From Berberis thunbergii (Eukaryota; Streptophyta; Magnoliopsida; Ranunculales; Berberidaceae), in the NCBI GenBank assembly GCA_003290165.1, contig QNQO01000531.1, forward strand, positions 434,001 to 498,000: DNA of 64,000 nt, written 5' to 3'. Below are positions 1,346 to 59,302 of the stretch, piece by piece (position 1 is the first letter of the stretch; each line of letters starts with the position of its first letter). The notes beneath the pieces were generated by a model. That model was not told the DNA's origin and did no database searches. It saw nothing but the letters and a program-made list of their open reading frames with translations. A program made the position numbers and the translations under genes.

Positions 1346-1500
1346 CCATCTCAAGACTTGTTTTTCAAGAATGCGCCATTTTTTTTCTCTTATAAGGCCA
1401 GCTCAACCTAATCTTACATATGGGCAAAATTCTAGGGTAATTAGGACAGTCAAATTAACAATGAGCAAAACCTCAGCAATGAGAAGGTGAAAGTAGTATA

Positions 1501-1897: not shown

Positions 1898-1903
1898 TCC
1901 CCC

Positions 1904-3308: not shown

Positions 3309-3695
3309 TGATGGGTGAAAGGACAATCACACGCAGTGATTCAAAACAACAATTGAAACAAAAACTCTATGATTTTATTGAATTCTCTAACACAAAAACA
3401 GAGAACTATGGGTTCTCTTGATCTCTCAACAACTTTCTTCCAATCATATCACACAATACAAGCTACAATCTATATATATAGATGAATAAGGCGGTGCAGA
3501 AGACCGTATTTCATAAATTTCTAGTGGTGAAAAATTGCAGCTCACATCTAGCTGGCAAAACGTGACGGTCTTCTTCTTCATGAAACTTCAGGTTCTCTCC
3601 GGTGGTCAGAGCTTCTAGATAACTTGATGAAGCTAGTGGATTTTGCTTGAATCTTTTGGATTTTGCTAGTTTGAGATCAAGGTTAATTTTCAACA
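3309..3695 (-). repeat. Copia 5' LTR
   Basis: This is the upstream LTR in element orientation. Its inner end at 3309 abuts RT coding sequence with no primer binding site or leader between them, which marks a large internal deletion (see findings). Confidence 0.88.
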
Positions 3696-14130: not shown

Positions 14131-14705
14131 ACACCAAAATCACAAAAAGGATGCAGATGAGTGGACACTTGTACATGGAAAGCATACTCAAAAGGCTCGG
14201 GCTCAAGGTAACTACACTAGCAGTCAGACTGCTGCTAATACAGGGACTGATATTAAAATTTAGCATGCTGCTAATACAGGGACTGATACTACTGCTGACA
14301 TTGTTACTTCTGCCACCAATGGTCTGCAGGTTGCACTGCCCGATAGCAATAGGTTTGCAGCTCTTGAGCAGCTAGAAGACACTGAGGTGGATGCAATACA
14401 GGCTCCTCAACTTCCTGTTACTGAAGTTTGTACTAAGTATGGGACTGATGTTGAATCTGGGTTGTTGTCCTCGGGTGACATGGTACCAGTGGGACGCATT
14501 GAGCATGGACTTACTGTCGGTGCAGAACCTAGCTCCTTGCGCAATGTAGTGACTAAATCCTTAAATATTGGCACCAGCGTCGGTGCAGTGGCTCAACCCT
14601 TGAATACTTTCGGTACGGAGACTAGATCCTTGAATACTATCAGTCAGTTGAGAGACAAAGTGCGTAAAATGGGAGCGAGCAGCTCCCTAAACCAAGATTG
14701 TCTTA

Positions 14706-17700
14706 ATGATTAAAGTTGGATGCTGGAATATTCGTGGGTTGAATGAATCAATGAAACAAAAAGAAGTTAGGCAACTCATTACTAAGGGCAAGCTTCATAT
14801 GATAGGTATCCTTGAAACTAAAGTTGTTGGGACCAAAACAAGCTCTATCCAGTCAGCAATTATGCGTGACTGGGAGTGGACTGACAATAGTGACATTACT
14901 GATGGTGGTCATCGAGTCTAGGTGGGGTGGAATCCTGCTCTTGTCACGGTTAACATCAGCTCTAGATCAGCCCAAGCCATATCACTAACAACTAAATGGG
15001 ACAGTGGATTCACTTGCTTTCTTTTTTTTCATATATGGTAGTAGTTCATACATGGTTAGAAAAGAGCTATGGCGAGATATTGATGGCTTCTCTGCAGCTT
15101 ATCCGTGGGCTCTATTAGGTGACTACAATGCTACTCTGCATACTCAAGAACGGGTTGGCAACTCAGATAGATATGTAGGAGGAGCAGATGAGTTTCTTCA
15201 TTGTGTGACCCAGACAGCGCTCTATGACTGCAGATACCGTGGTAATTATTTCACATGGAGTAACAAGCAAGCGGGGTGTGATAGAGTAGTGTCAAAGATT
15301 GACAGAGTCCTTGTCAATGGACTGTGGATGCAGGAGCTCCCCAATGCAGAGACTGAATTCATGAACCCATGTGTGTCTGATCATGCTCCTATGGTTCTTT
15401 CTTTGTATGACAACAATAATAGGGGTCCAATGCCATTCAAATTCGTTAACTACTGGGTTTATGAGAAAGACTTTACCAAGATAGTGGAGGAAGCATGGAG
15501 CACACAAATATATGGTAACCCTATGTTCAAGCTTGTTCAGAAGCTAAAGATTGTGAAGCAAGCACTCATGGCCTGGCGTAAGAACAATTTCAATAAAGCT
15601 TGTTCAAATGTTGAGCAAGCTAGACAACGTATGTACACGGCTCAGCAGGCTGTTCTACGACCTCCGGTATCTGATATAGTAGTCCATGCTGAAAAAATTG
15701 CAGTAAAAGAATATGCGTGTGCTGCTAGGAATGAAGAGTCTGAGGCTAAGCATCAATCTAGATCCATGTCATTTGCATTAGGCGATCAGAACACTGCTTA
15801 TTTTCATAGTCTTATCAGGGAGCGCAGAGCCCAAAACAGAATAATGAGCATTTCAAACAGGATGGTGCCAAGCTGGAGGAGCCTGCGGATATTGAACAAG
15901 AGTGCTTGCAATACTTTGGGGATATTTTCGCAGGTGACCATGAAACCCAGTATGACTCTAATATTATCAACTCCCTGGAGTTCCAGGGCGTTCTCACTAA
16001 GGAGATGGGTCAGAATCTCATCAGACAGGTTACCAAGAAGGAAATTGTGGAGACCTTGGCTGCTATCGACTCTAACAAAGCACCAGAACCTGATGGGTAT
16101 TCTTCTTTCTTCTTCAAAACTACTTGGAGGATTGTTAGGGATGATTTTGTTCGGGCTATTCTTAACTTCTTCCGAAGTTCTAAGCTTCTTGGTCAGGTAA
16201 ATGCCACAGTAGTTGCTTTAGTTCCTAAAGTTACTAACGCTTCCTACTTTAGTGATTACATACCCATAGCTTGCTGCAATGTTCTATATAAATGCATAAC
16301 CAAGTTGTTGACGAATAGACTGCAAGATGTTGTTCAAAGGGCAGTCAGTAACTCCCAATTAGCCTTTATCAAAGGAAGACACATTCAGGACAATATTATT
16401 CTGGAGCATGAGCTCGTCCGTAACTACCACAGGGATCATGGCCCACCTAGATGCGCTGCTAAGATTGATCTAAGGAAGGCTTATGATATGGTGCGATGGG
16501 AAGCTATCACTCATCTGCTAGAGAAACTGAAGTTTCCTCCTCAATTTATTATGTGGGTGAAAGAATGCATCTCTACGTCCAAATTCTCTATTAATCTCAA
16601 TGGGTTTCCTAGAGGTTACATACATGCTTCACGAGGTCTTCGCCAAGGATGCCCCCTATCCACTTACTTGTTTGTGATGGTCATGGAGATCCTCCATGTG
16701 TTACTAAGGAAGAAAGTTCAGGAAGGCCATTACAAGCTCCACTATCGTTTCAAGGACCCCATTATCACACACCTTGGGTTTGCAGATGATCTAATAGCTT
16801 TCTTCCATGGAGATGGTAACTCTGCAAAGGCATTAGCTGAAGTATTGCAAGCCTTCAAGGCCTGCATAGGACTAGAGGTTAATGACAATAAGAGCTCAAT
16901 ATTTCTAGCTGGTGTTACTAGTGATGAGCGAATGAACATAGGTACTTATCTGCAGTTTCATATTGAAGAGCCCCCTGTTAAGTACCTTGGATTGCCTATG
17001 ATATCCTCTACTCTCTCTCACTCCCACTGCTTCCCTCTTCTTGATAGAATTCGGAAGAGAGTTAACTCGTGGAAGAACAAATTCCTATCCTATGCTGGGC
17101 GTTTGGTCTTGATCAAGTCTGTGCTCGCCAATATGCATGTGTATTGGACATCCTGCTATGGACTGCCGAAGAAAACATTAGACTGTATTAATGCTATATT
17201 GCGCAATTTCTTATGGTCAGCTGGTGAGTCTCCGCTGAAAAAAATGAAAGTTAGTTGGGATTCTATCTGTTATCCTACTCGAAAAGGCAGTCTGGGTATT
17301 CGCAACATCAGAGTAGGTAACGAAGTTGCAACCTTAAAACATATTTGGAAGCTTATTTCCAAGCATGACACTCTGTGGGTGCATTGGACTTGGAAACACC
17401 TAGTCAAGCACCGTGATTTCTGGTTGATGAATCCTCCTCGAGAAGCATCACACTGTTGGCGACACATTCTGGAATGTAGGACCAAGGCAGCCACATTACT
17501 TACTCACTCTATAGGTAATGGTGAGGCCACTCTTCTTTGGAAGGATCCCTGGCATCCTTTAGGTATTTTGATGGAGTTCTTCCCACAAGGTTTCCTATAT
17601 GACTCCAGGCTTCATAGAAATGCAAGGGTCTCATCTATTATCAGAAACGACCAATGATGGGCTCCTTCAAGGATTGCACACAGGATTCCTGAGATAGTGA

Positions 17701-19527
17701 ATCAACTGGTGACATTGAATTGAGCAGCAACAATGATGATAAAGTAGTCTGGAAAGCTAGTACTGATGGTTCTTTCCAAACTAAAGCTACTTATGAGGCA
17801 ATTAGGAAGCGAAAAAGTATGGTCCAATGGACTTCTGTGTTCTGGTTCAAGCACAATATACCACGACACAACTTCATAACTGGCTGCTAACAAATAAAGC
17901 TCTAACCACCCTGAGCAAGCTGAAAAAATGGGGAAAAGCTCAGCAGGACATATGTCCCCTATGTGGTTATGAAACTGAGACAGAATCCCACTTATTCTTT
18001 ATATGTAGCTATTCTAGTGCTGTTTGGGGCCAAATCTTAAACTACTCTCTAAGTCGATTCATGAATGGGAGGTGGAATTGCAATGGTGCATTCAACACTT
18101 TCATGGTAACGGTGCTACTGTTACATTGAAGAAAGTTGCTCTTAATGCCACTGTGTACCATATCTGGATGGAGCGAAATAGAAGGTTGTATGAACAAAAA
18201 TCCAGCGCTGCGACAGAGCTTGGGCACCGCATATATATGGAAATCAGACTCAAATTCAGTGTGGGCACCTGGAAAACAGAGGATACGGACCAAAACAGGA
18301 ACTTACTGAACCAATGGCATTTGGAGTTTCAGCCAGTGTTCTAAAAATCGCTAGGTGCTGGGCGGGCAGCAAACAGGTGCCTAGTGCCCAGAGGCCTAGG
18401 CGGCGCCTAGGCAGTCTTAGGTTTTGTATTATAACTTTAATAATTTATAAAAGTTAAGCATAATACCTTATCAGTTACATCCAATTTAATGCCAATATAC
18501 ATATGCAAAATTTAAAAACATGAAAAATTAACAACCGTGAACAAAATTTGTTAAAACTCAAATAACTAAAGTTGGTCATGATGGGTACTTTATATAAATT
18601 TGAATTTGTGTAATCTTTTATTTTTCTTCAAATTGCATGAATAACCTCAGTTATTTTTGATAAAATCTACATTAGTAAAATTGGTACCGGCAGATCCTTT
18701 GAGAATTCCATTAAGTAATCATCCTTTGCTATATTTAGACATATACTGAATAAAAAATAATTAAATAGTTTATTTCTAAAAAATAGGAAAGAAAAATTAA
18801 ATAAGAACACAATCAGCCTTATTAAAAAATAAAAATAAAAATCGCCCAGACCGCCTAGATCCCTCCCAGATCCGCCCAGACAGCCCAGAACCGCCCAGAC
18901 TGCCCGCCCAGCCATTAATCTGGGTGGTTTTCCACCTTCTAGCGCCTAGGCGGCCGCCCAGGCCGATTTTTAGAACACTGGTTTCAGCTGAGTCACTCTC
19001 TTCCTCGACAATGCTCATGGAAGAAACCCCCATTGGGATGGCACAAGATTAATACTGATGGTTCCTTTCGTAGTGCAAGTGTTGTACATGAAGCCAAAGG
19101 AGGTTACAGAGCAATTCTAAGGGATGATCGAGGTGAAGCAATCACTGTCTGTTCTGGGGACTGTCGTGGATAGTCTGTTATTAAGCATGAACTGCAGGGT
19201 ATTCTTGCAGGATTGAAGCTGGCCATATTGCACAATAAAATGTGGCTAGCGATCAGTACAGACTCCTCAACTGTGTTCTCTTATATCACGTCTCATAAAC
19301 TAGTGTCTTGGGAGCTCAAACACTGTTTGCAAAATACGAACTGAGCTTTCTAAATTAGATGAGTATTCGTGTCAACATGACTACAGATAAACAAATAGAG
19401 CAGCGGACTTATTAGCGAGCACCTTCCCTAATGCATAATTTATAGAGTTCACGCCTAGCTCCTTTGTTGAAGACCTGAAAAAGATCATGTATGAAGATAG
19501 TGTAGGGAAAATATATCTTAGATTGTA
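14706..19527 (+). pseudogene. LINE ORF2: endonuclease, reverse transcriptase, RNase H
   Basis: ORF2 starts MIKVGCWNIRGLN (AP-endonuclease motif) at 14706. It hits a TAG near 14919 and shifts frame near a run of T at about 15020. It continues with GDYNATLH and the catalytic SDHAPMVL of the endonuclease. Another shift near 15880-15906 leads into reverse transcriptase (KAPEPDGYSSFFFK, QLAFIKGRHIQDN, GLRQGCPLS, active site FADD in GFADDLIAF). A stop follows near 17655, then a zf-RVT segment (CPLCGYETETESHLFFIC, about 17960-18010). The C-terminal RNase H (INTDGSF at about 19050) lies beyond the inserted MITE and has its own stops. All domains are in canonical order; the protein cannot be made. Confidence 0.92.
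18334..18980. mobile_element. hAT-type MITE nested in the LINE
   Basis: This 647-bp element has inverted termini CAGTGTTCTAAAAATCG and CGATTTTTAGAACACTG and GC-rich subterminal repeats of the GCCTAGGCGG type. It is flanked by a perfect 8-bp duplication, GTTTCAGC (18326-18333 and 18981-18988), which is the hAT size. It codes for nothing. Skipping the element plus one duplicate rejoins the LINE frame between the zf-RVT and RNase H segments, so the insertion is younger than the LINE. Confidence 0.92.
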
Positions 19528-27099: not shown

Positions 27100-27941
27100 A
27101 TGGGAGATTCACAAGGTAACGGTAAACGAAAAGATTATAAAACTTGGACCGCGGAAGAGAGCAATGCTTTGCCCCAGCTCATGGTTGAAGGCGCCATGCT
27201 TGGGTTCAGGGATATTAATGGTGTTATAAGTAAAACAACTGTAGAGGCAAAGTTACTTCCAAAACTTAAGGAGAAAATTAGTAAGGAGATAACTTATAGC
27301 CAGTATCAAAGCCGAGTGAAATGGTTTAAGAAGCAATACAACAATTACTCTCAGCTTATGAACCACAATTCTGGGTTTGGATGGGACCTGATCACAAAGA
27401 GATTCACTGCGCCTGATGAAGTATGGGCAGACTATTTGAAGGTGGGTTAAATATCTTGAACTTTTATTCTATTTTACAGCATAATTTTTTTGACTCTTTA
27501 ACATATTAACTTTCTTTATATTTTGAATCTTTTTTTCAGTCACATCCAGCGCATGCGCACTTTCAGTCAGAAACTTTTGCAGACTATGAGGATTTGAAGA
27601 TTGCAGTTGGTAATGGAACTGCAACTGGGATGGGGTCAATAGGTCTAGGTGATGATCCAGATGCCACAACATATGATGAAGAAGGAAATGGATCTTGGGA
27701 ATTTGGTGGCATGGATGACTTGGTCTTTGATCAAGACAACAATGCATTTGTGCAAACTGAAAATGCAAATGATGCACCACAAAGCAGAGCTCATGGCAAA
27801 ATAAGTAGAGCTGATTATGAACAAAGTAGCAACTCAAAAAGGGTAGCTACTCAAGCTATAGTTCTGGAAAACTTATCAAGTGGCTTTGGTGAAATTGTCA
27901 CCAATTTTAAAACAATTTGTGGCATAATGGAAAATAGATAA
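27100..27941 (+). CDS. PIF/Harbinger Myb/SANT-like protein (intact)
   Basis: Two exons, 27100-27441 and 27540-27941, join in frame (GT at 27442, AG at 27538-27539) to a 247-aa protein. The N-terminal half is a Myb/SANT-like DNA-binding domain of the type found in plant Harbinger ORF1 and its host relatives (KTWTAEESNALPQLMVEGA at residues 13-31, then KISKEITYSQYQSRVKWFK and FGWD). The C-terminal half is acidic and ends in a short helical region (VLENLSSGFGEIVTNFKTI). In related elements this protein partners the transposase for nuclear import and TIR binding. No stops or frameshifts were found, unlike the neighbouring transposase. The start is the first ATG in frame after AT-rich leader. Confidence 0.82.
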
Positions 27942-28507
27942 TCAACGAATGTTGGATTGCTATTCAAGAGACCCCAGGATTGAATAATGGTGCTCAGTTT
28001 TTTGCGCTTAGTTTTCTTAACACTAAAACAAAACAAGACACCTTCTTGAAGATGAGTCCAGACTAAAGACTTGACTGGATCACTTGGGCACAAAGGGATG
28101 CATAAAGCTAATAAGCTATGGCCATTTGGATTTTAATGCATAAGGCTAAATACTGTGTGTTGATTTCATTTTGCAAATGATGATTTTTAATTTGGTTGTG
28201 TTGAATGATTTGATTTTGTTGAGTGTTGGATTGCAATTTTTCATGTCATTACCTGCCTGGTTATCTTTTTTTTTGTCAGATACATGTCTTGTTCTCTAAT
28301 GTCTAATATATTTGGTTTGTTAGAGGATATGATCATTCTTTGATAACGCCATGTCTCTATCTCTGTATAGCTTAATTTGAGATGTGTTCTAGGTACCTAA
28401 GTATCTAGGGAAGCAAGGGTGCTTCATCTGTTTTAGTCCTTAACAATTCATTGCATTCAAATAGGCGATTATTATGAATATATAATGACCTTGTTCAGGT
28501 ACTTGCT

Positions 28508-29998
28508 TTGATAGCAATATGTGAAATGGATATGTATGGAGTTGATGAACAGGATGAAGAGATTTACAAGGCCATGAGAATTTTATTAACGACAATACAA
28601 GCAGTGATTTATGTGTTATATAATCTTGTGCCCAATATAAGTGATGAACGTATTAGACGTCCATTGACTCGACGATCGGTGACATCAAATGGATACATAT
28701 ACATGAATAAGTTATTGGATGGAGACCCACATATCTTTTGAGATGTCTACAGAATGTATCCTGAAGTGTTTCAAAAATTATGTGTCATCATACAAGAGAA
28801 AACACTTCTACGGAGTACTAGATTTATTTGTGTTGAAGAAATGTTTGCGACCTTTTTATTAGTTGTCGGTCAAAACAATCGATCTAGTGAACCTCGAATG
28901 GTATTCGAGCGATCTCATTTCACTGTTAGCAGAAGTTTCAACAAAATCTTGAAGAGCTTGAATACAATATCTCCAGTGTTCATGGCTAAACCACCGCTAC
29001 CTGATACCACACCACCTAACATAAGAGAAAGTACAAGTTTTATCATTTCTTTAAGGTACGCAATGTAAGTTTTATAGCAAATATTTATATCACTGTATTG
29101 CTTTAATATTGGTTCTTTTCTTCTTTTTGTACATATGTTGTAATTATTTTTCTTTTTTCTCAGGAATGTATTGAAGCTATTGATGGCACACATATTCCTG
29201 CAACAGTTGTTGGACGTGAGGTCAGTAGATTCAGGAACCATCATGGAAAATTATCACAAAATGTTTTAGCAGCTTGCAACTTTAATTTACAATTCATATA
29301 TGTGCTTAGTGGATGGGAGGGTTCTGCTCATGATTCGAAAGTGTTAAATGATGCTATTTCTAGACGAAATGGACTCAAAATACCATAAGGTATAATTTTA
29401 CGTGCATTAAAAATGCAGCAAACTTATTGAATTTTATACCATATAGTATAAAGTACAAACATACTAATTGCACATTTTTTTATGATCATGTAAATATTAC
29501 TTTGGAGACTGTGGATTTCCCAACCGACATCGATTTTTAGCTCCATTTCGTGGCACTCGATATCATCTCAAAGATTTTGGCGGTCCAGGAAACCATCCTG
29601 TCAACGCAATTGAGTTATTTAATCTTCGTCATGCTTCATTGAGGAACGTAATTGAGAGAATATTTTGAATATTCAAGCCGCGGTTTACAATTTTCAAATC
29701 AGCACCACCATTTCCTTACAAGACACAAGCGGAGCTTGTTTTGGCATGTGCAGGATTGCATAATTTTCTTCGACAAGAATGTCGTTCAGATGAATTTCCT
29801 CCTGAGCCAGAAAATGATCTGGTAGAGAATGATGAAGATAATTTTGAATGGGATGATATTCAAACCCAATAGCAGCAAAGAGAAAATGCTAATCAATGGA
29901 GAATGAGTATTGCTAATCAAATGTGGACAGCAGCTCAAGCAAACATCAACGTTGCTAACAATGATAATGAAGAAAGTGACCATGAAGGAGAAGAATGA
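28508..29998 (+). pseudogene. PIF/Harbinger DDE transposase, inactivated
   Basis: Homology runs from an N-terminal leader through a helix-turn-helix-like region (FQKLCVIIQEKTLL) into the DDE_4-type nuclease: AIDGTHIPA (first D, about 29175), LSGWEGSAHDSKV (second D, about 29320), and LRHASLRNVIERIF (E, about 29630-29665). Lesions seen: TGA at 28739-28741; a one-base deletion near 29036, just before the intron (29056-29163, GT-AG); TAA near 29388 at the second intron; a likely lost acceptor near 29493; and TGA within ERIF-IFK near 29667. Several of these are single transitions, as expected after silencing and methylation. No functional transposase can be produced. Confidence 0.9.
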
Positions 29999-30351: not shown

Positions 30352-33199
30352 GTAAAAAGAAGTTAATTTATGATACTACCCAAACAAATAGTTAATTAAA
30401 GGTTACCTCCTATTGATATTGTATTGCAATTTCCCCTTTGAGTAGCGAACAATGTGGCTTGATTGTTACTGCAAAGTTTTGATGACTAAAATACCCCTAT
30501 AATCCAAGGGTGGAGATTAAAATTCTGTATCTTGAGCAACACATATTAAGTATCTCAAGGCAACATTAAGTGTAAAATGTAAATCAAACATAATTCGAAT
30601 CCCAATGAAAATACAATGGCTTAATAATTATATTAAAAAATAAACACCTTCTTCCCCAACCCACCCAACTCCAACAACACCTCCACCACCATCATCTGTA
30701 TTGAACTAACCCACCCACCCAATCTCAACACCAACCTCACCTAATCTCAATACCAACATCACCACCACGAACAATGAAGCAACCCACTTACTAATCTCAA
30801 TACAAACATCACCACCACCTATAATGAAGCAACCCACCATCCACGGAGCTATGGCGATGGTGAGGTGAATTAGGGGTGCGAGGTGGGGTGACTAAGTTCA
30901 AGGCAGATGGTAACGAGGTGAGTTGTGGGTGGAATAGGTAGCAATGGTAAGATGATGGTGGTGAGGATTTTGCTACGTACTCACCGCTTTTGCCTCCCTC
31001 GTTCCTGATATGTCTTTGACAATGAAAAAAAGAGAGATGAAAGTCTAGTCAAAATATATATTCAAAATGAAAAGCCATAATCTTCATTCACTTGGAACAT
31101 CCTTCTCGTTTTGATCTCCGACACAGATTTAGTGATGGATAAGCAAGCGACATCCAATGAAAGTTGCTTGTATCCTTGTGCGGGGGAAAGCCAAGAGTAC
31201 ATACACAGATCAAGTGATTGCATGATGATCCCGTCCCCAATGCCCGAAACATCGGGTTAGATTGAGATGAGCACAATCAGATAAAAATAGCGGTGACTAC
31301 GCGGCTAGCCCAGTGCGATGTCTCGAGGAGTCTAAAAAGAGAAAGTGTTCAGAGAGGCCACGACATAGTCTTATACTCTTGGATCGTAGGACTAAGCAAA
31401 ATCTTTGATTGGAGGAATGGGCATAATAAAACTCCATTGATGGGGGTCTCAAAAATTGTTTGTGGCAAATAGAAGTGAGCTAGAAAGGGTAAGGTAGGTA
31501 AAAAGAGTGGGACCTATCTATGGCTAACTCAAAAAATATTAGATGGGATGTAACTCTGGATGCACTAAAGCATCACATGCTTGGTTTGATAAATTTTCGA
31601 CAATAATCTGTCTACAAATTCAACCATGTCCTGCCAGAGTAACATTATTTCCCTAGCATCAGTACTTCCATAAAAAAAAAGCTAGATTCATCATTGAACC
31701 ATTCGTTACCACCCTTGTCATACGGCTAAACCCTAAGGGCATAATCATGTAGAGCAATAGGGGTTGGATAAGGAGTTTGTTGCTACTCTCGTTCCATTTC
31801 CTTTTGAAAACTCAATGAAAGGTTCGACCAACAAAATAGAAGGACAACAACGAACATGTGAACCCTTTCGACTTTTTATTCTTTTGCTTCACATAGCTTT
31901 TCGTCTCCTTGATAGCTTGAAGTTCTCCACAAGTATGAAAAGTTGGAGGTGTTCTCCCATTGTTCTCTCTTTAAGAACAAAAATATTTTGAGCAATGTTT
32001 ATTGGAGGAGGTGTAAGACAACTCTTATTGTAGCTGAAGGGGCTGGGAGAAAGGGCTAGGCTCATGCATTCAATGGTTTTCGATGTATGATCGATGGCGG
32101 GTGGCATGGAACGACAACAGAGTAAAACTGAGCTGGTCACTCGACAGTAGATGTTTCCGAATCAAATATCTCATTTACGTGCAGGGTAGGTTTATAAACT
32201 AGGGCTGGAGGTGGGGCGACCCAGTTCGAGGGAAGTAATGGCAAGGTTAGTTGTGGGTAGAGGTGGTGGTAGAGGAAAAGATGGTGTCAGATAAGGTGTT
32301 TTTCCTCGCCATATATCTATTTGGAGATACGCAACATTTTAATATTTCAAGCCCCGTTCATTGTTTGCCTCAAGATACAAGTTATCATTTGCTTGAAACC
32401 AACTCTCAATTTTAGTCGGTTGATCGTCTGAGGGTACTTTTGTTTTGAAAATGTGATCCATTTGAAAATGACACGCGTATTAATGGTCAAGCTACATGGA
32501 CCACTAGTCTAGGGAGAAACTGCAATACAAGATGAATTAGGGGGGTGACCTTTATTTAGCTATTTTTTGGGGTATCATAAATTAACCAAAAAACCCATCA
32601 TGAATTTCATCATCTAGTGGTTTTATTTTTCCCATCATCTCTTTAGACTTTTTCCTTTCCATTTTTTTAGTTATTACCAACCAAAACATTCATCAAACTT
32701 GCGGTAAATAAGATTCATCTCTTGTTAGAGGGTTGATTTAGGATCAATTTCCATCATCTTTCGATATGTTTGATTGGTTATTAAAAACTTTATTGTATGA
32801 TTAGACATATTATAATAATGTATCGTTGTTGTTTATGATGTGGGAGATGTAGTTACATCTCATTGAAGATGTAAAGTGAGATTACAAGTGTAGAACACAT
32901 GATTTCTTCCCTACATCAAACCCATGTCGAAACCTATTAAGCCCTTGTGTGTGGGTGCAAGAGGTGCACAAAACTAACTTTTGAATGCAAATATTTTCAT
33001 TTTTGCACTAATCATCCAAGCTACACATTGCATTTTGGAAATGCTCAACAATAGAAAGAAAACAAATGATTTGATTATTTGGTATCCTAGAGAGAATGGT
33101 TGAGAAGGATTGAAAAGATGCCTCTTCACACAAATGACAAAACCCTAACCCTGTAATTTAAAAAGAAAAAAGAAAAAAGAAAAATTCACTACTGATGGT
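30352..33199. other. Intergenic DNA with minor repeats, no gene
   Basis: No open frame resembles a known protein. A G/T-rich phrase of about 60 bp (GAGGTGGGG-GAC...GAGTTGTGGGT) near 30870-30930 recurs diverged near 32208-32260. Pyrimidine- and A-rich tracts occupy the rest. Nothing else recognised. Confidence 0.5.
30741..30838. repeat. 50-bp tandem repeat, two copies
   Basis: CTAATCTCAATACAAACATC-type units start at 30741 and 30791, each ending in AATGAAGCAACCCAC. Confidence 0.75.
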
Positions 33200-34224
33200 G
33201 TGGTTGAAGGGAAATTCTAGCTGGCCTGGGAGGCGCGCCTGGGTCGCTGCCTGGGAGGCTCCCTGGCACGCGCCTGGGTGGCTGCAAGGCACGTGAATGA
33301 AGGAAATTGGGCGGGGTTTCAGCCGCCAAAAAATTTGGGAAAATTTCGATTTCAACTTTGAAAGGTTTATGAGATCTAGGTTTATACTCCCCATCGAAGA
33401 AGAAAACCTTCCCTTCCCTTCCCTGCCCTTCCATTCCTTCCACCGCAAACCGATCTTCTCCTATCTGAAAATCAACCCCCCTGCCACGCCGCCCTCTTCC
33501 CTCCTTTGAACTCTCTGTAAATCGAGAAGAAGAAAGTACAAGAGATTGAAAAAACGAGAGACTCTCTGTAAACACCTCTTCTCTTCGAGATAGGTTTCAG
33601 AGATTGGTTTGGTTTGATTTATCGAGAAAAAAAATCGAGAACAAGAAGAAGTTTTTGGAGGGAGTTTCAGCAACCAATCACATTTTCCCTTATTTCACTT
33701 TTCGTTTTGGTTTTTGGCTCCAAACAACAAACAAGAAACCAGAGAACAAGTTCCCTCGAACAAGAAGTCCCCATTCGATCTTCAAGCCATCTCTCAAAAT
33801 TACAAAGGTAAGTGCCTCATTCATTTACTGTTGATTTCTTCTTATGGGTTTCTAGATCTAGGGTTTATACTCATTTTTCGTGTTGATTTCAAAGGGTGGG
33901 GTTCTAGATCTAGATCTAGGGTTTCTGATTTTGACTCATTTGACAAACAAAATATGTTTTGAAATGTCGAAATAGAAATACAAAAACTGATTTTTACGAA
34001 ATTGGAAGGGATGGGTTTTCTACTCCCATTTTTCTACTGATTTTCTACTCCGAAAGTTCTGAATTATAAACTGAAATTGCTTTTTTAATTTCATTTCATT
34101 GTGTGGATGGGTTTTCGAATTTATGTTCTTCAATTTGTGAATATGCGTTTTACTTAAATTTCTTCAATTCAATGACCCTTTTGTTGTTTTTGATTAATTT
34201 GGGTTTTTTTTTTTTTTTTTTGAG

Positions 34225-34675
34225 ATGGTGGTAAAAATCCTATCTTTCAAGAAAAGTTTGTGTTCCCTCTCATTGAAGGTCTCAGAGAGCTTAATGTTCA
34301 TGTATGGAACATCAATACTTTAACCTGTGATGACTTCATTGGCAGTGGGTGGGAAGTAAGTTTTTGATCTTGTTTAATGAACCACAATAGATTCACTTAG
34401 AGACCCTTTTGAGGTTTTCTTCTTTGGGTTTCAATTTGAAGTTGATAAGTTGGTTCTTGTGTTCCTAGGGTTCAACTTCAAAAGGTAATTTCTCAAGGTT
34501 TTGATGACACCCCATGGTCAATTCAGACTAAAATTGGCAGGTAAGGAAGTCAAGAACAAAAAATTTAGATAAGGTTTGATCAATCAAGATTATTGAATGT
34601 CTGAAATTACTTTGTTCTTTAATTTGCAGATTCTCGGGTGAAGTTCGCCTTATAATGCATTATGCAAATGCTAAA
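34225..34675 (+). pseudogene. Captured C2-domain protein exons (left arm)
   Basis: Three exons with intact splice sites: 34225-34355 (GGKNPIFQEKFVFPLIEG, then HVWNINTLTCDDFIGSG), 34469-34540 (VQLQKVISQGFDD then PWSIQTKIG) and 34630-34675 (FSGEVRLIMHYANAK). They match the second half of a single C2 domain of small plant C2 proteins (elicitor-responsive/SRC2-like), which bind phospholipid in a calcium-dependent way. The first half of the domain, with the first calcium-binding loop, is missing. A proline-rich tail (VAPLAPPYGAPPQV) seems to follow near 34795. No complete protein could result. Confidence 0.8.
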
Positions 34676-35513
34676 GTAAGTACCCTTTGTTTTTTTGAAT
34701 GGTATATGAACAAGTTCAGGAGTTTGTCATTATCAAATTTGTATTTAAGAAATCAAAATGAATTTGGACAAAGTTTAATTGCGGGCTAGTGTAGCACCCT
34801 TGGCACCTCCTTATGGAGCTCCACCTCAAGTACATCTATATGGTGTACCTCCTTATAGATTTGAAAAATGTTTGTACAAACTAATGGACTTGCTCACAGA
34901 TGAAATATAAGAACTAGATATATAATTCTTGTGTTCATTTAAGTGTTGATAGTTGAATGTAGCTCCGTCTAATACTTTAGTGGCATTAAAATGTTTCAAT
35001 CATCAATTTTTTAATCTGCCTGCCGGGGTTTTTTTTTTTTTTTGTGTTCATTTTTGCTTTCTGTTAGCAGGGATTTGGATGTAAAATGTTTTCTGGATGG
35101 ATAACCTCACATGCCATGGTAGATGACATTCAAAGGGATGAAGCAGGCTTGCGTTAAGCAGCTATAATGGCCAAACTAAAAGTAGACCATATTACAAGGA
35201 CCGAAATAGCTGAAGAAAATCTAGCTGTGGGTATGTAAATGTTGAAATTAACATCAGAAGTGCATCTAGATTGGTCTTGCTTGCGTCACTCCTAGAGCAG
35301 GTACATAACCGTACCATGTCGTAGAATAGTGGTTTCAATTACACACACCAATAATGGCCTTACAGTTCAAAGATTGACTAGGCTAATACACACCAAAATG
35401 GATAAGATGACTAATAGTCTTATACATAATTAGACCCTAGGATAATGTTTATTAAATGAATGAGAGTTACACCAGTAGAATAATACAAGGATATAGCTAT
35501 TGGTTGATGGTGA

Positions 35514-35999
35514 ATGACATTTTATTGGTGTGATGACACCCCTCCTATTCTCCATCTCCGACTAAAGAACTACCTCTACTCGTTTCAGTTTCTCGTGGAT
35601 GACAAAAGCTGGAGAGCATCAGTTCATCGATATGAGAGTGGTAAGACGAGGTATGCGCATTATAGGCAAACCGATGATGTCTTGTCCGACGCAGGCTGGC
35701 ATTGCAGTTTTTGCTTCCGTCATATTAGTGAGTTCATATTAAAGATGAAAGCTTATAGTCATAATGATCGGGTGAGGTTCTCCCATTACTTGAATCCCAG
35801 AAGGGTTCAGGATGTGATCTGCAATGGCGCCGACTTGTTTGACATGCTTCCTGAAGAGTACACGTTCAAGGAGATCATTGGAAAGCTAGGACCCATTCCT
35901 CATTCATATTCAGATGTTCAGCTTCCTTCATATCTTTTGAACAGTGCTGACAAGTATAAATTTCTCTTACCGGGGAACTGCGTAAGAGAAGGTGGCTAG
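35514..35999 (+). pseudogene. Captured GT17 glycosyltransferase C-terminal exon (left arm)
   Basis: This 161-aa open frame matches the C-terminal part of plant family-17 glycosyltransferases, annotated as beta-1,4-mannosyl-glycoprotein N-acetylglucosaminyltransferase (GnT-III-like). Clear blocks are ILHLRLKNYLYSF, DDKSWRASVHRYESGKTRYA, AGWHCSFCFRHISEF, MKAYSHNDRVRFSHYLNP, GADLFDMLPEEYTFKEIIGK and KYKFLLPGNCVRE. Full-length family members have a membrane anchor and the N-terminal catalytic half, both absent here. The parent gene is predicted to act in the Golgi. This copy is a fragment of about 40% of the usual length and is open throughout, which suggests recent capture. The ATG is only the first in frame, not a natural start. 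Confidence 0.88.
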
Positions 36000-36037
36000 G
36001 CTTCACGAAGGAATCCTCTTGATGAAGGTACAGGGCG

Positions 36038-38304
36038 AAAGGAATCCTCTTGATGAATAGTAGAGGTAGTTCTTTGCAATGAGATTCTCGATTCTTATAC
36101 TCCTATTGATGATATGGGACTAAAGCATGACAACCCTTTCTTCTTGGACTTTTGTTGCGACAACAGTGATATGCCGAAAGGAGAGAACAACCCAGCCTGT
36201 GGGTTTTGTGAGTCTGACAATTTGGAACTTGGAACACCACCTGATCTCGGGGTAAGTTCTATTACTATTGGAACTATTGAGTTACACATATGTTCTTATA
36301 TAGCCTTGCAATTCCATATCTTTGCACGGTGCGTGTGCAATGAAGTTGGATCCTGCACAAAGAATCTTACCTGGTCAACATTAGTCCTTCAAGTTCATTT
36401 ACTTGCCTTCTGGTTTTTTGCTCTTTAAGATTAAAGAATTATCTTGAATATACATCTTACTCCATACATACGTGCACATTTTCAGGATTTGCAATTTGGT
36501 TCCCAAGAAAGTTTCATGGGTTGGTTAGAACGATTGTAGGGTGATGAATGGAGAAGCTTTGAACGGTGCTTAGGAGTCCCCAGTTTTGTTTATCCTTGTG
36601 CTGCTAGGCTCTCTTCTTGGTGCTGAACTGTGAGAATAGGGATGATTGAGCTTCAAAGATGCTAGGGAACATCCAAGAAGTCTAAGCTCTTCTCCTTGGA
36701 ACTTCTACTGTCAGGTGGCTGGAGTTGGTGGGGAGTCCATGCAGGGCTCTTTCAGCGGAATGGTAATGGATTGGCTATTGTATAAGATTTTGGTGGAAGG
36801 AAACATATCTGGTGCGCAACCTTTAGTGATTTGGCCTAATAGGATTTATCTGTGTTGTAACATTGAGACCTTCCTCATGGCATTTACTTTCGTTTCATGT
36901 ATTTACAGTGTTATCTTCTGCAAATGCTTATTATTAAGACACGGTGGTTGTGTTAACATCGATTGATGAATGTTTGCAGTGAAAGTGACTGTCAGATCTA
37001 CATCTGTTTACACTGTATCTTCTGCCTATGCAGGAAAAAAATTATGCTTTTTTGTGTGTGGTCTGCCTTGAGCATGTGTTACCTGTATGCCTCCAAGAGA
37101 TCAATCGGGTATGGAATTGAAGTCTGATGGACTCTGTTTTTCCCAAATGGGTATGGATATCAAGATAGTGAAGTAGATTGATAAAATTCAACCCTTGTGA
37201 TGGGATGACTGAAGGTTTTTTGAACTTCATTGATTTCACCCCAACCATTTTTTTACTAAGCATGGGAAGGTGATGCAAACATTTCAACATTTAGGTTGAT
37301 TCTCTTTTTGTCAATTTAGATAATTTAATCTTGCCTTCACTTTGTACTCGTTTGTTACATGAACCTACTCTGTAAGTATTTTAAAGCTGTTCTAAACAAT
37401 CAGCTTGCTCCCATAAGCAACAAATTAGTTGACAAACATGAATTTTGATTCAAAACGATACAGTGATCTATCAGAAGCTGCAGTATGTAGCACGTTTCTT
37501 GTGAAATTTTATTGTTCAAATCTTACCACAAAGGGGACTTCTTGACCAAACAGTTTTCTATTTACCACTTTGGATTTTTTTTTTCTTGAAATATTTATTT
37601 TCATAACTTAAATTTTCTAGTGTTTGCTTCTTGGAAACTAATGAAGTTCATGTAGACAAATAAGTTGCCTACATCAAAGCATCCAAAGGTACCTTTGATC
37701 GACTTCTTAGTATTAGTACCATATCTGACATAGACTATGCAAACAGAAAAACCTGACGCTGCTAATGACAGCCAGACATCTTTGACGGCATTGCAAATGA
37801 TTGTAGCATAAAAGCACAATGCAGAAGATTCAGAAAACAATAATTGGACATGCATCCAAAGATCATGGAGATGATTGGAGGATGTTGAGAACATAGAAAT
37901 AATTAACTTTGATAAGAAACAAAATTCCTGTCATTCAAATGCCAACAAAATTTCATTAGTTTCGCTTATTTCCAAGTTTTCCTTGCTCTTTTGCACTTGG
38001 GGATAATGCCATGCTGACTGCATGTGATATGCAGCCTCTTAACAATGATTTAGCTGCACTATCAGCGAGCTCCTCATCTGATGCATACTTCAACTCTGAA
38101 CAAAATTTAGCACCATCAAGATAAAAAGAAAAAAAAAACCAACCAACGGAATATACAATGTTTCACCTAGAAACATCAGAATCTATCCTATTTTGCCGAT
38201 TCTTCATAAAGAATGATCTAAATCTAGTCAGATATATGGTATTGAGTCTGCCACCAAACGAAAACAATCAGTTGTTCAATGAAACCTTTGATCTAGGAAT
38301 TGAA
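36038..38304. other. Core of the giant-TIR element
   Basis: Holds no transposase. The first 40 bp are scrambled copies of nearby arm sequence (see findings). Two exon-like segments in the plus direction occur at about 36114-36252 (donor GGG/GTAAGT, peptide with DFCCDNSDMP) and about 36485-36535 (DLQFGSQESFMGWLERL then stop); together they look like the end of a captured gene I do not recognise. A third exon-like segment is on the minus strand at 37970-38095. The rest (36540-37960) looks like 3'UTR or intergenic sequence without a frame. Confidence 0.5.
37970..38095 (-). pseudogene. Unidentified captured exon in the core
   Basis: On the minus strand an acceptor-like TTTTGTTCAG precedes an open stretch encoding LKYASDEELADSAAKSLL, then RGCISHAVSMALSPSAKEQ, and a TAA shortly after. 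Composition and splice context look like the last exon of a plant gene. I do not recognise the family. It points in the opposite direction to the left-arm exons, suggesting a separate capture event. Confidence 0.4.
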
Positions 38305-38342
38305 CGCCCTGTACCTTCATCAAGAGGATTCCTTCGTGAAGC

Positions 38343-38828
38343 CTAGCCACCTTCTCTTACGCAGTTCCCCGGTAAGAGAAATTTATACTTGTCAGCACTG
38401 TTCAAAAGATATGAAGGAAGCTGAACATCTGAATATGAATGAGGAATGGGTCCTAGCTTTCCAATGATCTCCTTGAACGTGTACTCTTCAGGAAGCATGT
38501 CAAACAAGTCGGCGCCATTGCAGATCACATCCTGAACCCTTCTGGGATTCAAGTAATGGGAGAACCTCACCCGATCATTATGACTATAAGCTTTCATCTT
38601 TAATATGAACTCACTAATATGACGGAAGCAAAAACTGCAATGCCAGCCTGCGTCGGACAAGACATCATCGGTTTGCCTATAATGCGCATAACTCGTCTTA
38701 CCACTCTCATATCGATGAACTGATGCTCTCCAGCTTTTGTCATCCACGAGAAACTGAAACGAGTAGAGGCAGTTCTTTAGTCGGAGATGGAGAATAGGAG
38801 GGGTGTCATCACACCAATAAAATGTCAT
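38343..38828 (-). pseudogene. Captured GT17 C-terminal exon (right arm)
   Basis: Mirror copy of 35514-35999. The 161-aa frame is also fully open. It differs at residue 20 (Tyr to Cys) and residue 46 (Arg to Ser); both positions are inside conserved blocks of the family, and the left arm carries the family-like residue at both. The left arm therefore looks closer to the parent. Same family remarks apply: a fragment without the catalytic N-terminal half. Confidence 0.88.
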
Positions 38829-39664
38829 TCACCATCAACCAATAGCTATATCCTTGTATTATTCTACTGGTGTAACTCTCATTCATTTAATAAACATTAT
38901 CCTAGGGTCTAATTATGTATAAGACTATTAGTCATCTTATCCATTTTGGTGTGTATTAGCCTAGTCAATCTTTGAACTGTAAGGCCATTATTGGTGTGTG
39001 TAATTGAAACCACTATTCTACGACATGGTACGGTTATGTACCTGCTCTAGGAGTGACGCAAGCAAGACCAATCTAGATGCACTTCTGATGTTAATTTCAA
39101 CATTTACATACCCACAGCTAGATTTTCTTCAGCTATTTCGGTCCTTGTAATATGGTCTACTTTTAGTTTGGCCATTATAGCTGCTTAACGCAAGCCTGCT
39201 TCATCCCTTTGAATGTCATCTACCATGGCATGTGGGGTTATCCATCCAGAAAACATTTTACATCCAAATCCCTGCTAACAGAAAGCAAAAATGAACACAA
39301 AAAAAAAAAAAACCCCGGCAGGCAGATTAAAAAATTGATGATTGAAACATTTTAATGCCACTAAAGTATTAGACGGAGCTACATTCAGCTATCAACACTT
39401 AAATGAACACAAGAATTATATATCTAGTTCTTATATTTCATCTGTGAGCAAGTCCATTAGTTTGTACAAACATTTTTCAAATCTATAAGGAGGTACACCA
39501 TATAGATGTACTTGAGGTGGAGCTCCATAAGGAGGTGCCAAGGGTGCTACACTAGCCCGCAATTAAACTTTGTCCAAATTCATTTTGATTTCTTAAATAC
39601 AAATTTGATAATGACAAACTCCTGAACTTGTTCATATACCATTCAAAAAAACAAAGGGTACTTA

Positions 39665-40118
39665 CTTTAGCATTTGCATAATGCATTATAAGGCGAACTT
39701 CACCCGAGAATCTGCAAATTAAAGAACAAAGTAATTTCAGACATTCAATAATCTTGATTGATCAAACCTTATCTAAATTTTTTGTTCTTGACTTCCTTAC
39801 CTGCCAATTTTAGTCTGAATTGACCATGGGGTGTCATCAAAACCTTGAGAAATTACCTTTTGAAGTTGAACCCTAGGAACACAAGAACCAACTTATCAAC
39901 TTCAAATTGAAACCCAAAGAAGAAAACCTCAAAAGGGTCTCTAAGTGAATCTATTGTGGTTCATTAAACAAGATCAAAAACTTACTTCCCACCCACTGCC
40001 AATGAAGTCATCACAGGTTAAAGTATTGATGTTCCATACATGAACATTAAGCTCTCTGAGACCTTCAATGAGGGGGAACACAAACTTTTCTTGAAAGATA
40101 GGATTTTTACCACCATCT
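39665..40118 (-). pseudogene. Captured C2-domain protein exons (right arm)
   Basis: Mirror copy of the three C2 exons of the left arm, with the same splice junctions on the minus strand. No lesion specific to this copy was noticed by eye. Confidence 0.78.
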
Positions 40119-41292
40119 CAAAAAAAAAAAAAAAAAAAAACCAAATTAATCAAAAACAACAAAAGGGTCATTGAATTGAAGAAATTTAAGTAAAACGCAT
40201 ATTCACAAATTGAAGAACATAAATTCGAAAACCCATCCACACAATGAAATGAAATTAAAAAAGCAATTTCAGTTTATAATTCAGAACTTTCGGAGTAGAA
40301 AATCAGTAGAAAAATGGGAGTAGAAAACCCATCCCTTCCAATTTCGTAAAAATCAGTTTTTGTATTTCTATTTCGACATTTCAAAACATATTTTGTTTGT
40401 CAAATGAGTCAAAATCAGAAACCCTAGATCTAGATCTAGAACCCCACCCTTTGAAATCAACACGAAAAATGAGTATAAACCCTAGATCTAGAAACCCATA
40501 AGAAGAAATCAACAGTAAATGAATGAGGCACTTACCTTTGTAATTTTGAGAGATGGCTTGAAGATCGAATGGGGACTTCTTGTTTGAGGGAACTTGTTCT
40601 CTGGTTTCTTGTTTGTTGTTTGGAACCAAAAACCAAAACGAAAAGTGAAATAAGGGAAAATGTGATTGGTTGCTGAAACTCCCTCCAAAAACTTCTTCTT
40701 CTTCTCGATTTTTTTTCTCGATAAATCAAACCAAACCAATCTCTGAAACCTATCTCGAAGAGAAGAGGTGTTTACAGAGAGTCTCTCGTTTTTTCAATAT
40801 CTTGTACTTTCTTCTTCTCGATTTACAGAGAGTTCAAAGGAGGGAAGAGGGCGGCGTGGCAGGGGGGTTGATTTTCAGATAGGAGAAGATCGGTTTGCGG
40901 TGGAAGGAATGGAAGGGCAGGGAAGGGAAGGGAAGGTTTTCTTCTTCGATGGGGAGTATAAACCTAGATCTCATAAACCTTTCAAAGTTGAAATCGAAAT
41001 TTTCCCAAATTTTTTGGCGGCTGAAACCCCGCCCAATTTCCTTCATTCACGTGCCTTGCAGCCACCCAGGCGCGTGCCAGGGAGCCTCCCAGGCAGCGAC
41101 CCAGGCGCGCCTCCCAGGCCAGCTAGAATTTCCCGTGGTTGAAATAACTAGAGAGACCTGAGGATTAACCACGGTTGAAGTGAGGCCCACAAATTTTAAG
41201 CGGGAGTCGTCCTCCATTTTGCCCCCACTTCTCCTTCTCCTCCAAATCGCCAATCTCGAAATCTCTAGACAGCGATTTCCCGCGTGTTCGCC

Positions 41293-44200
41293 ATGGCTGG
41301 AAACCGCATACGACGAAAGCCGGCAGTGAAGAAGATCGTCAAAGAAGAAGAAGGCTTCGTCGAGGACGAAAAACCGTTCGATTTGGAAGTAGTTCGGTCA
41401 AACCTTCGCGATCGCTGGGAATTGGCTTCCGTTCTCAACTTCTTACGTGTAAGTTGTTTCTTCCGTGTTTGTTTTCATTTTGATATGAAATGGTTTTTCT
41501 TAAGGGACCATTTGATGGTGAGGTTTGTACGGATCTCTCTCTCTCTCTCTCTGTTTTTGTAGGTTTTTAAGTCTGTTATTGGGTTCAAAATGGAGTTATC
41601 GGCGGACGAGATTGAGGAGGGTTTGATTAAGCCCAACAACTCTCTCTCGCAACTGCACATTTGTCTTCTCAAGGTTCGCTCGCTCTTTTTTGCCTTTCTG
41701 CACTCTGGGTTTCTTTCTTTTCAGTGCGATAGGTTGATTAGATGTGCAATGTGATGGGTTTTGTTTCTTTAGTTGTCAAAAAATAGATAAATAATACCTA
41801 AAATTCGTGAATATGTTGAGGAGTTTCGCTTGTAAATCTCATATTGAGGCATTCCAAGATTTTGGGAGGAAGTTTGAGATACTGGCATTTGGATATTTTT
41901 CCGCATAAGTTTGACTACAACGGGGTTCAAATCAAATTTTTATGTCTTTGTAATATTGAATTAGCATCATTGATTGTTTGTCTTTCATGGATTGTGCTTT
42001 GGTGCAGATTACCGTCTAGTATGTGTTCTAGGAAAAAAAAAATTCAGTGTAAATTTTGGATTAGATGTTTTATGGGAATGGTTTTGTTTCTTAGTTTTGC
42101 TGATCGATTTTTACACTGGGATTCGGGTCTTCTTGATGTTAAAATAAAAACGAAATTAGATTCTGTGAATGATATTGAAGCTATTTAATACTGAAAGATT
42201 ATAGAAATCCCGCGTAAGATTCGATTCGAAACCGTGAAGGATTTTGAGAAGAAGTTGAGATAGCAGCATTTCTGTGTCTCCACTTAACTTTATTGGTGTT
42301 AGAGTCAAATTTTATGTTTGCTTTAAAAAACGAATCAATATCATTGATTGCTTTGCTTGTCCTTCAAAGTTTAATGGAACATTTTCTGGTGCAGATTACC
42401 ATCTGATATGCTTTTACCTAACTTTTGATGTTATTAAAGCTGTTCCACACACTTGGAAAGTGAATCAATTTGCTATTGTGATTAATTGTTCCCGAGTTGT
42501 TTATATCATCTTGCCCAGGACTGTGATTTTGTTTTTTCGAGTTAATTTCGGTACCTTCATTTTAAGAAACATTTTGAGAAAAATTTCGGTGTGTTAAGAA
42601 AAAACATAAAAATTTCGAGAATATATGAAATATATATAATGAATTTTGAGGGTATATGAAATATGTGGAAAAAAATAAGATGCAAGTACATAAATCTATT
42701 AAACACATTAAATGAAGCCTAAATACCAAGAAATGAAAGAAACATGAGTATATCCAGGTTATTTGAGAAACATTAGTGTTCAACATTTGACCTTGTGGTA
42801 TTAAAGCAGGAAGAAATTGTCAGAAACAAGAATGTACATCAGTGTTTACAGGTGATTTTATGTTAGAATCTTTTAGTCTCTATAAGACTTGAAAAGAAAA
42901 AAGAACATGAAATTGATTTGACTTATGAACCCTGCCGAATGCATTTTATGGTCCAAGGATCCAATAGAATACCCTGTTTGTCTTAACCCTTATGGCTGCA
43001 GAATGTGCATTTGTTGGTTCCTGGTTATTAAAATATTTCATGAAATGCATTGAAGATTCTCTTAGTTATTGTGGTTGTTATTCCTATAATTGACATTATG
43101 TGAACACTCAACAGGGGATACCGCCTGTAAGCAAAAACTTGGGGCCTGATGTGTGGGTGACTACACTTATTAAGAAACTTGTTCCCTGGTGGCCCTGGGT
43201 AGGTCATTTGAAACTTAATACTGCATTCAGGTTAAATATATAACATATTTATCTTTTAACCTTTTGCAAGCACTTAACCACCTTTGATGCAGGTGGCAGA
43301 AGGGGAGATTCCGCTTATTGCAGGCAATAAGTATGTTGAGGCCACTACTAGAGTATCAGTTGAGTTGTACTTTTCTTTTGATTTCACTTGAGTAACATCC
43401 TTCTTTTGCCTCTGCTTGGACAGGAAGGAGATCTTGAAATACAATGAACTTGACCCAATGATGCGTTTACTCATCCTAAAATCGCTTTGTGAAATCCGTG
43501 CCTCTGTAATGACCATATTTTGTCTTTTACTGTCTTGTGTCCTCAAGTACTTTTGTTATCTTTCTTTCCTCCCACCGTGAGATAATGGATTTCTTCTTTT
43601 CACAGCAAGACGATGCGGTGAGTTATATTAATGATTCACTGAAAGGAGGGACTGAAATTTCTACTTTCCGCAAAGATGGGTAGAGATGGAAATGGTACTT
43701 CTTACTGGTAATCTTTGATAACATTTTCTCTTTATTTGTTTATTTTATTGGCACGTACAAGTTGATAACGTCACTCTTCTCTCTTTCAGGTATGATGGCG
43801 ATGAAAGTATTGGTCATAGGTTATACAAGGAAGTAACTAAAGTTCAGTTAGTGCCGAAATCACCAAAATCACCAAAATCAAGAGGGAAAGGCCGCCAAAC
43901 CCAACTAACAACCACTTACCAATGGAAAACAATTGCAACTAATCTAGAGGAATTTCAGCAGATATCAGTATGTTAAAGTGTTTGTATTATTCTTTCATAC
44001 AAAACAACCTTTCTTCAAGTGTTTCATTTCTTTGTTGGACAATGGCAGATTAAATTGTCATCCAGCAAGGCTGTGGGAGAAGCTGCTTTTGCACAGGTCA
44101 TTGAGGATGAAATGGTACCTGTGCTTGAGAAAATTCAGAAGGTGAGTTTTTGAAATTGGAAAAAAGAAGCTCCTGTTGTACAGGTCACAGTAAATTATTT

Positions 44201-46837: not shown

Positions 46838-47521
46838 TGATGATATACCAAAATGGTCACAGCCTTGAGCCATATACGTGTCATGATGATTTCGAGGAAT
46901 TACGGGCCCCAACATTAGCCCAACACGACAACACTGATCCGGCCCAAGTGGTTCTAAGCCCGCCCAATGCAGTCCGCCAAACGGACTCGAACTCTTACAG
47001 CTTGCTAAGTCCACAGGTCTCACAGCTATCCTCAATACTCGTAAGCCTTGTTAAGGCAAATATCTCGAGGATCAGCTTCGAACAGGCAATTACATCAGCT
47101 TTCCGCTTTTAACTAGGAAGCAAATACCAGAGTATATATCACGCACGGAAACTTCTTTTTACAGATTACTATGAGATTTGGAACTATCTCCCGTCTATCT
47201 AGGAGCACCGGGCTAACAGAGAATTCCCCTTCTATAATACAACTCCTAATTAGAGAATGATTTCCACGAATATCTCCTTAAATTACGCCATCGATGGTCT
47301 GGTCGAACCAGAATTCCTGCACTATAAATAAGACATGAGGTTGATAAGCTAAGGTACGTTACAAATTCCTTGTTTACAACATTACACTTTCCTCAGATTC
47401 CTGTCTGACTTTAGCATCAGAGTGTCATCGACCACCACAACGGTGCTCCGTGGCTCAAGTGCATTTCTTATGCAGGTCAGCAGAACTAGGTCAAAGCAGG
47501 GAGCGAAAAACGACTGCATCA
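46838..47521 (+). repeat. Tat-like 5' LTR
   Basis: Direct repeat of 55000-55686. Contains a TATA-like CACTATAAATAAGAC near 47320, the probable promoter of the element. Confidence 0.92.
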
Positions 47522-54999: not shown

Positions 55000-55686
55000 T
55001 GATGATACACCAAAATGGTCAAAGCTCTGAGCCATACATGTGTCATGATGATCTCGATGAATTACGGGCCCCAGCATCTGCCCAACACTGATCTGGCCCA
55101 AGCGATTCTAAGCTCACCGAATGTAGTTTGCCAAACAGAATCGAACTCTTACAGCTTGTTAAGCTCACATGTCTCATAGCTATCCTCAATACCGGTAAGC
55201 CCTATTAAGGCAAATATCTCGATGATCAGTTTCAGACAGGCAATTACAACAACTCTCTGCTTCCAACTAGAAAGCAAATACCAGAGTACATATCACGCAT
55301 GGAAACTTCCTCTTACGGATTATCCTGAGATTGTGAACTATCTCCCTCGTATCTAAGAGCACAGAGCTAACAGAAAAATTCCCTTTTATAGCACAACTCC
55401 TAATTAGATAAGGATCTCCACGAATATCTCCTTTTTAAATTACCCACGCCATCGATGGCCTGGTCAAACCAGGACTCCTGCACTATAAATAAAACATGAG
55501 GTTGGTGAGCTAAGGTGCGCTACAAATTCCCTGTTTACAACATTACACCTTCCTCAGATCCCTGTCTGACTTTAGCATCGGAGTGCCATCAGCCATCACA
55601 ATGGTGGTCCATGGCTTACGTGCGTTCCTTGTGCAGGTTAGTAAGCACAATTAGGTCAAAGCAGAGAGCGAAAAATGACTGCATCA
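55000..55686 (+). repeat. Tat-like 3' LTR
   Basis: Direct repeat of 46838-47521, preceded by the polypurine tract and followed by the ACAAT target duplication. Confidence 0.92.
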
Positions 55687-58402: not shown

Positions 58403-59248
58403 TTACATTACAATAACCTTTTTCCTCCTCCTACTCCTCCTCCTCCTCCTCATTCTAAAGCTGGGGCTCTTACGCAAGGTTGTCACCGGAGACTTCTCAT
58501 TCGTTTGCCGTAAACCAATGACCAGATCAACAAACGCACCTAAAATGTACTTATATGATTTCTTTTCATTCAAATTCAAATAACAAAACAACAACTCTTC
58601 CATAAAATCCCAATCAACGCTTTGATCTTGTTGGACTCGGGCACCAATCATCTCCTGCATAGATTGTCGAAAATCATCATAAGGGTCAGTAGATAACGTT
58701 AAGATCGCTATGGCTTCATTGGGGAGAGGTACACCCTTGACTTCAGCTGATGACCTTAAGGTTTCATTAAGGTTGATTGAAGTAGAGCCTTGATCTTCCA
58801 CATCAAATGTAGATAATGAGCCACTAGCCCGGGCATCTTCCACTAGGGAACCCGACGAACCCGAGTGTACAAAGAACCTTTTTGATGCATGGACTTTGGG
58901 TGGTGGACCAATAAACTTAGGCGATTCATACAAAAATGCACATGAATTTTCTCCATGCTCACTTCCACTAGCCTTCTTTTCCTCGTCTTCCTCCTCATTA
59001 TTTTTGCGGTATAATGAGCTAAAATTTTCCATAAGAAATTTGTCAATGTCTGTCAGTGTCGCAGAATCTTTGTTTTGGTCACTAACATCATTTTGATTTT
59101 GGTTGATGGCGAATGACAGGGTCTTCGAACGCCTGCAGCCTGACAAGATCCATGCAGTAGTAGATTTGGAAGCAACTTGGGTATGTGGGGAAGGAAACTT
59201 TAGCCTGTTGAGGTAATCTTGGACAGACTTTTGAACTCTTCTGGGCAT
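58403..59248 (-). CDS. OVATE family protein (transcription repressor, OFP14-like)
   Basis: Single-exon 281-aa protein starting at 59248 (MPRRVQKSVQDYLNRLKF), the N-terminal pattern of OFP14-like members; an upstream in-frame ATG at 59284 would add 12 residues without family support. The OVATE domain is at about residues 184-248 (LTLSTDPYDDFRQSMQEMI, WDFMEELLFCYLNLN, YILGAFVDLVIGL). OVATE proteins act in the nucleus as repressors with TALE homeodomain partners and shape organ growth. The middle is low complexity, with an acidic patch at 85-91. The C-terminus is arginine-rich (about 266-277), encoded by a CCT repeat that could vary between alleles. The frame is intact and no introns are needed, as usual for the family. 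Confidence 0.92.
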   Translation of the reverse strand: MPRRVQKSVQDYLNRLKFPSPHTQVASKSTTAWILSGCRRSKTLSFAINQNQNDVSDQNKDSATLTDIDKFLMENFSSLYRKNNEEEDEEKKASGSEHGENSCAFLYESPKFIGPPPKVHASKRFFVHSGSSGSLVEDARASGSLSTFDVEDQGSTSINLNETLRSSAEVKGVPLPNEAIAILTLSTDPYDDFRQSMQEMIGARVQQDQSVDWDFMEELLFCYLNLNEKKSYKYILGAFVDLVIGLRQTNEKSPVTTLRKSPSFRMRRRRRSRRRKKVIVM

Positions 59249-59302
59249 TTTGTTTGCTTGGCGATAAAAATGGGATTGAATCAAAATGTGTGCAGTGAAT
59301 GG

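Follow-up and report, generated by a model that had tools for sequence, protein, structure and literature searches.

A transposon-like insertion bounded by a 9-bp target-site duplication was found at positions 33209–41134 of the window, i.e., of the whole stretch of 64,000 nucleotides of Berberis thunbergii DNA that was analysed. In our opinion, it is very probably a recently inserted non-autonomous DNA transposon, and most likely a Mutator-like element (MULE) of the Pack-MULE kind. The class is assigned from the length of the duplication and the anatomy of the repeats, and the duplication length alone is no proof of membership in the Mutator superfamily. Two near-identical inverted arms, which carry pieces of other genes, make up most of the element. 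A probable scar at the junction of one arm with the core is its most useful feature and suggests which arm is the copy; the element seems young enough to retain such a trace of repair.

Boundaries, Arms and Insertion Site

Self-comparison of the window by BLAST paired 33209–36037 with 41134–38305 on the opposite strand, with 99.541% identity over 2831 columns, 10 mismatches and 2 gap openings. Among the repeat pairs listed, this was the longest, the runner-up having 696 columns. Alignment of the arms, a check proposed by an earlier note on this DNA, was made with MAFFT and gave 13 differing columns at 11 places, namely 10 substitutions and 3 gap columns located in two poly-T runs, and the pairing of the arms includes a perfect run of 684 bp. 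The left terminal inverted repeat of 2829 bp (33209–36037, + strand) is 99.54% identical to the reverse complement of the right one, which has 2830 bp (38305–41134, − strand). The earlier coordinates of the element and of its near-identical arms proved to be exact to the base, and the core, previously given as about 2.27 kb, measures 2267 bp (36038–38304, + strand). It was also borne out that most of the length lies in the termini, as the inverted repeats account for 5659 of the 7926 bp of the element (71%). Left arm and core had no match to the flanks within the window in a BLAST search with E values up to 0.01, which some short repeats escape.

The 9-mer GTGGTTGAA abuts both termini exactly, at 33200–33208 and 41135–41143 (both on the + strand), and identity is lost at 10 bp, in agreement with the perfect 9-bp target duplication reported before. 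The rest of the window has no further copy of it on the + strand and a single one, at 23148, on the − strand. For a given flush match of 9 bp, the chance probability is 4^−9, or about 4e-6.

The element is situated upstream of a gene with a DDT domain, the 5′ exons of which occupy 41293–43505 (+ strand), and the ATG lies 149 bp past the right target duplication. The hand-spliced translation of this gene matched PF02791 with an E value of 5.8e-5 and 23.6 bits against a cut-off of 22. MULEs are known to prefer the 5′ ends of genes for insertion.

Short tandem arrays are present at both ends of the element. The left array (33224–33283, + strand) contains four GCCTGGG copies, beginning at 33224, 33237, 33249 and 33272, in units of 12 and 25 bp, and its mirror at the right end (41058–41119, − strand) was recognized by Tandem Repeats Finder and a motif scan. 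Besides the four copies at each end, just two more GCCTGGG motifs were found in the whole window. Probably, the original ends of the element correspond to the first 100-odd bp containing this array, and it may be guessed that the array serves for transposase binding. An exact scan of viral contigs with the 25-bp terminus gave 0 matches, a result of little weight for a plant element.

Gene Fragments in the Arms

The statement that gene exons lie inside the termini was confirmed, pieces of a C2-domain gene and of a glycosyltransferase family 17 (GT17) gene being present in both arms. The C-terminal half of the GT17 gene, as far as a stop codon, is found at 35526–35999 (+ strand) in the left arm and at 38343–38816 (− strand) in the right arm. 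The left copy matched PF04724 with an E value of 2.4e-85 and 287.1 bits, covering profile positions 194–348 of 348, and the right copy with 1.2e-83 and 281.5 bits. Two amino acids differ between the copies, and, because the right copy has the lower score, the comparison suggests that, at one of these sites or at both, it is the left arm that retains the original state. A sequence search of PDB with the GT17 piece as a query (E up to 0.001) found 0 entries.

The C2-domain fragment consists of three exon-like pieces at 34227–34674 (+ strand), and its right copy is placed at 39667–40114 (− strand) by motif positions. The match to PF00168 lies inside the first piece, with an E value of 1.9e-5 and a score of 25.2 bits that barely exceeds the cut-off of 22. 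This fragment is unlikely to be a functional coding unit, because its three pieces could not be joined in one frame with the splice sites tried. Both genes appear to have been captured, judging from the fact that truncated pieces of unrelated genes stand side by side.

Core Content and Coding Capacity

Two further exon-like regions were read by hand in the core. One of them, belonging to an unnamed gene, is located at 36078–36539 (+ strand) and stays open across a GT-AG intron (36252–36485) to a stop codon. The other, from a second unnamed gene, occupies 37956–38095 (− strand) behind an AG acceptor, and its translation begins with ELKYASDEELADSAAKSLL. Neither region had a match when scanned against Pfam.

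The left arm and the core (33209–38304) are overlapped by 38 stop-to-stop open reading frames (ORFs) of at least 45 amino acids. They were scanned against Pfam, 30 of them whole and eight as shorter start-to-stop or hand-read pieces; from the right arm, which is 99.5% the same, only the GT17 ORF was scanned. The curated cut-off was reached by the GT17 and C2 pieces only (n = 38 ORFs), and the GT17 piece, with 161 amino acids, is the longest ORF in the element. No recognisable transposase was found by Pfam among the 38 ORFs of the left arm and core, which fits the earlier description of the element as non-autonomous and is as expected of such a copy.

A very weak match of the core ORF at 36957–37127 to Transposase_1 (E 0.22), the score of 11.9 bits being far below the cut-off of 24, was taken as chance; the Transposase_1 family differs from the Mutator transposase family. 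Several other weak Pfam matches of ORFs, also far below their cut-offs, were put down to chance.

Probable Scar at the Left Arm/Core Junction

Two short patches follow each other immediately inside the left boundary of the core. The first, of 19 bp (36039–36057, + strand), is an exact direct repeat of 36008–36026 of the left arm, and the second, of 17 bp (36059–36075, + strand), is an exact inverted copy of 35564–35580 of the same arm. The BLAST self-comparison showed the 17-bp patch and missed the 19-bp direct one, which was found by exact matching, so some short repeats escape this program. As a control, 1382 pieces of 40 bp were taken from the flanks of the element within the window and matched to both strands of the left arm; exact matches of at least 17 bp were obtained in 2 of the 1382 pieces, whereas the 40 bp of the left junction hold two. 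At the right junction, by contrast, neither arm shares a match of at least 12 bp with the terminal 100 bp of the core.

Two micro-copies, one direct and one inverted, lying no more than 40 bp from an arm boundary point to template switching, and we infer that the patches are the scar of such an event. Most simply, the right arm would have been the template from which repair synthesis made the left one, slipping and switching strands before reaching the core. The left arm agrees with the 17-bp patch at every base and the right arm at all but one (38770), so that the right arm probably changed at this position later. This patch is evidence of local copying and alone gives no order of the arms.

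Age of the Insertion

The little divergence of the arms, with 10 substitutions, agrees with the view of the earlier note that the element is very young. If 7e-9 or 1.3e-8 substitutions per site per year are taken as the rate, which may be different in the host, ten substitutions in about 2828 sites correspond to approximately 0.25 or 0.14 Myr, respectively. An age obtained in this way would be too low if the arms underwent gene conversion.

Classification and Alternative Explanations

Mutator-like elements have target-site duplications of 8–11 bp, mostly of 9 bp, and terminal inverted repeats that usually exceed 100 bp. The element considered here has the flush 9-bp duplication GTGGTTGAA and repeats of 2829 and 2830 bp with 99.54% identity, and the fragments of other genes inside it (GT17, E 2.4e-85; C2, E 1.9e-5) point to the Pack-MULE kind. 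It resembles Pack-MULEs in the 9-bp duplication, long inverted repeats and lack of a transposase, as well as in pieces of several genes with introns and insertion near the 5′ end of a gene. The usual repeats of Pack-MULEs are hundreds of bp long, whereas here each has 2.8 kb and consists largely of gene-like DNA. The element is real and well preserved, and it is extreme in its share of inverted repeat and in the gene pieces within its arms, yet it most likely belongs to a known kind.

The earlier note had also named a foldback element, and a reading in which the palindromic arms are the founding feature, the gene pieces are chance cargo and the transposition was perhaps not the work of a Mutator transposase would account for the 71% of inverted repeat (5659 of 7926 bp) and for the short tandem arrays at the ends. 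In foldback elements such as FARE of Arabidopsis, the inverted repeat likewise makes up most of the length. The arms of classic foldback elements consist of tandem repeats, whereas those described here are mostly gene exons. Tandem Repeats Finder, run on 33150–41200 with a score of 40, returned 10 rows, the longest of about 62 bp being sited at the outer ends. Tandem repeats are thus concentrated in the outer ~75 bp of each arm, and besides the end arrays of ~60 bp each arm has two short runs, one of the CCTTC type with 35 bp and one in a poly-T region, the bulk being gene-like. On this result arms of the classic foldback type were rejected, and we regard a foldback origin in general as improbable.

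A misassembly that duplicated one arm in inverted orientation is a familiar error which produces just such near-identical inverted arms. It was rejected here as highly improbable, because the arms differ at eleven places, two of which are amino-acid changes in GT17, the two edges of the core are different and the 9-bp duplication is flush. Equally improbable is a resident inverted duplication of genes that acts as a long-hairpin source of small RNAs and has transposon-like ends by accident; the snap-back orientation of the gene fragments would suit it, but at either end the limit of the inverted repeat coincides to the base with that of the 9-bp duplication, and this explanation was rejected for that coincidence. 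In our opinion, the Pack-MULE reading is to be preferred.

Proposed Origin and Hairpin Potential

To our knowledge, there is no settled account of how very long inverted repeats arise in Mutator-like elements or of how these elements acquire parts of genes. For the Pack-MULE-like element of Berberis, the following course may be proposed. By repair synthesis on other templates, the element would have acquired fragments of the two genes that can be identified and probably of two others. One terminus with its C2–GT17 cargo may then have been copied, in inverted orientation, into the opposite terminus, as the patches suggest, and this copying would have lengthened a shorter terminal repeat to 2.8 kb. 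Slips between templates during the copying could have left the two short patches at the junction of the left arm and core. Finally, a transposase supplied from elsewhere presumably placed the unit just upstream of the DDT-domain gene and created the 9-bp duplication.

Read-through RNA of the element could fold into a near-perfect stem of 2.8 kb, as judged from the pairing of the arms. The long snap-back layout is shared with maize Mu killer, in which a Mutator element is duplicated in inverted orientation and yields a silencing hairpin RNA. The arms of the present element contain pieces of other genes instead of transposase sequence. It is conceivable, if unlikely, that the element acts as a natural RNA-interference construct, transcription from one end giving a 2.8-kb hairpin whose small RNAs would silence the C2 and GT17 parent genes in trans. 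If this were true, duplication of the arm would have made a new regulator out of the captured cargo. The element sets gene exons out as a potential hairpin a short distance upstream of a further gene, so that effects on small RNAs and expression are testable.

Other Features of the Window

Several other repeats and genes were noticed in the window. The region 27100–29700 contains a Myb/SANT-like ORF (PF12776, E 1.1e-16) and, 2 kb past it, a stretch resembling a DDE endonuclease, with a match to PF13359 (E 0.0091) that stays under the cut-off; the region looks like a degenerate transposon of the PIF/Harbinger type. Probable remains of a non-LTR retrotransposon were found at 13595–18344, with an ORF of 583 amino acids and a reverse transcriptase match (PF00078, E 1.5e-35).

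Pieces of a Copia-like polyprotein were recognized by eye from translations at 1498–3689 (− strand), where Pfam gave no match for the single ORF scanned; they are enclosed by a pair of direct repeats (1498–1891 and 3306–3689) with 90% identity. Direct repeats of ~690 bp at 46838–47521 and 55000–55686, 83% identical, are possibly old LTRs, and between them gypsy-like ORFs were seen by eye, with a weak aspartyl protease match below the cut-off. Overlapping direct and inverted repeats of 90–400 bp are clustered at 60283–61085.

Pieces of an HSP70 gene in two overlapping ORFs (PF00012) lie at 8726–9926 on the − strand, and a gene with an OVATE domain, which is plant-specific and, like the retrotransposon and gene content, a sign of plant DNA, is located at 58403–59284 on the same strand (PF04844, E 4.6e-24).
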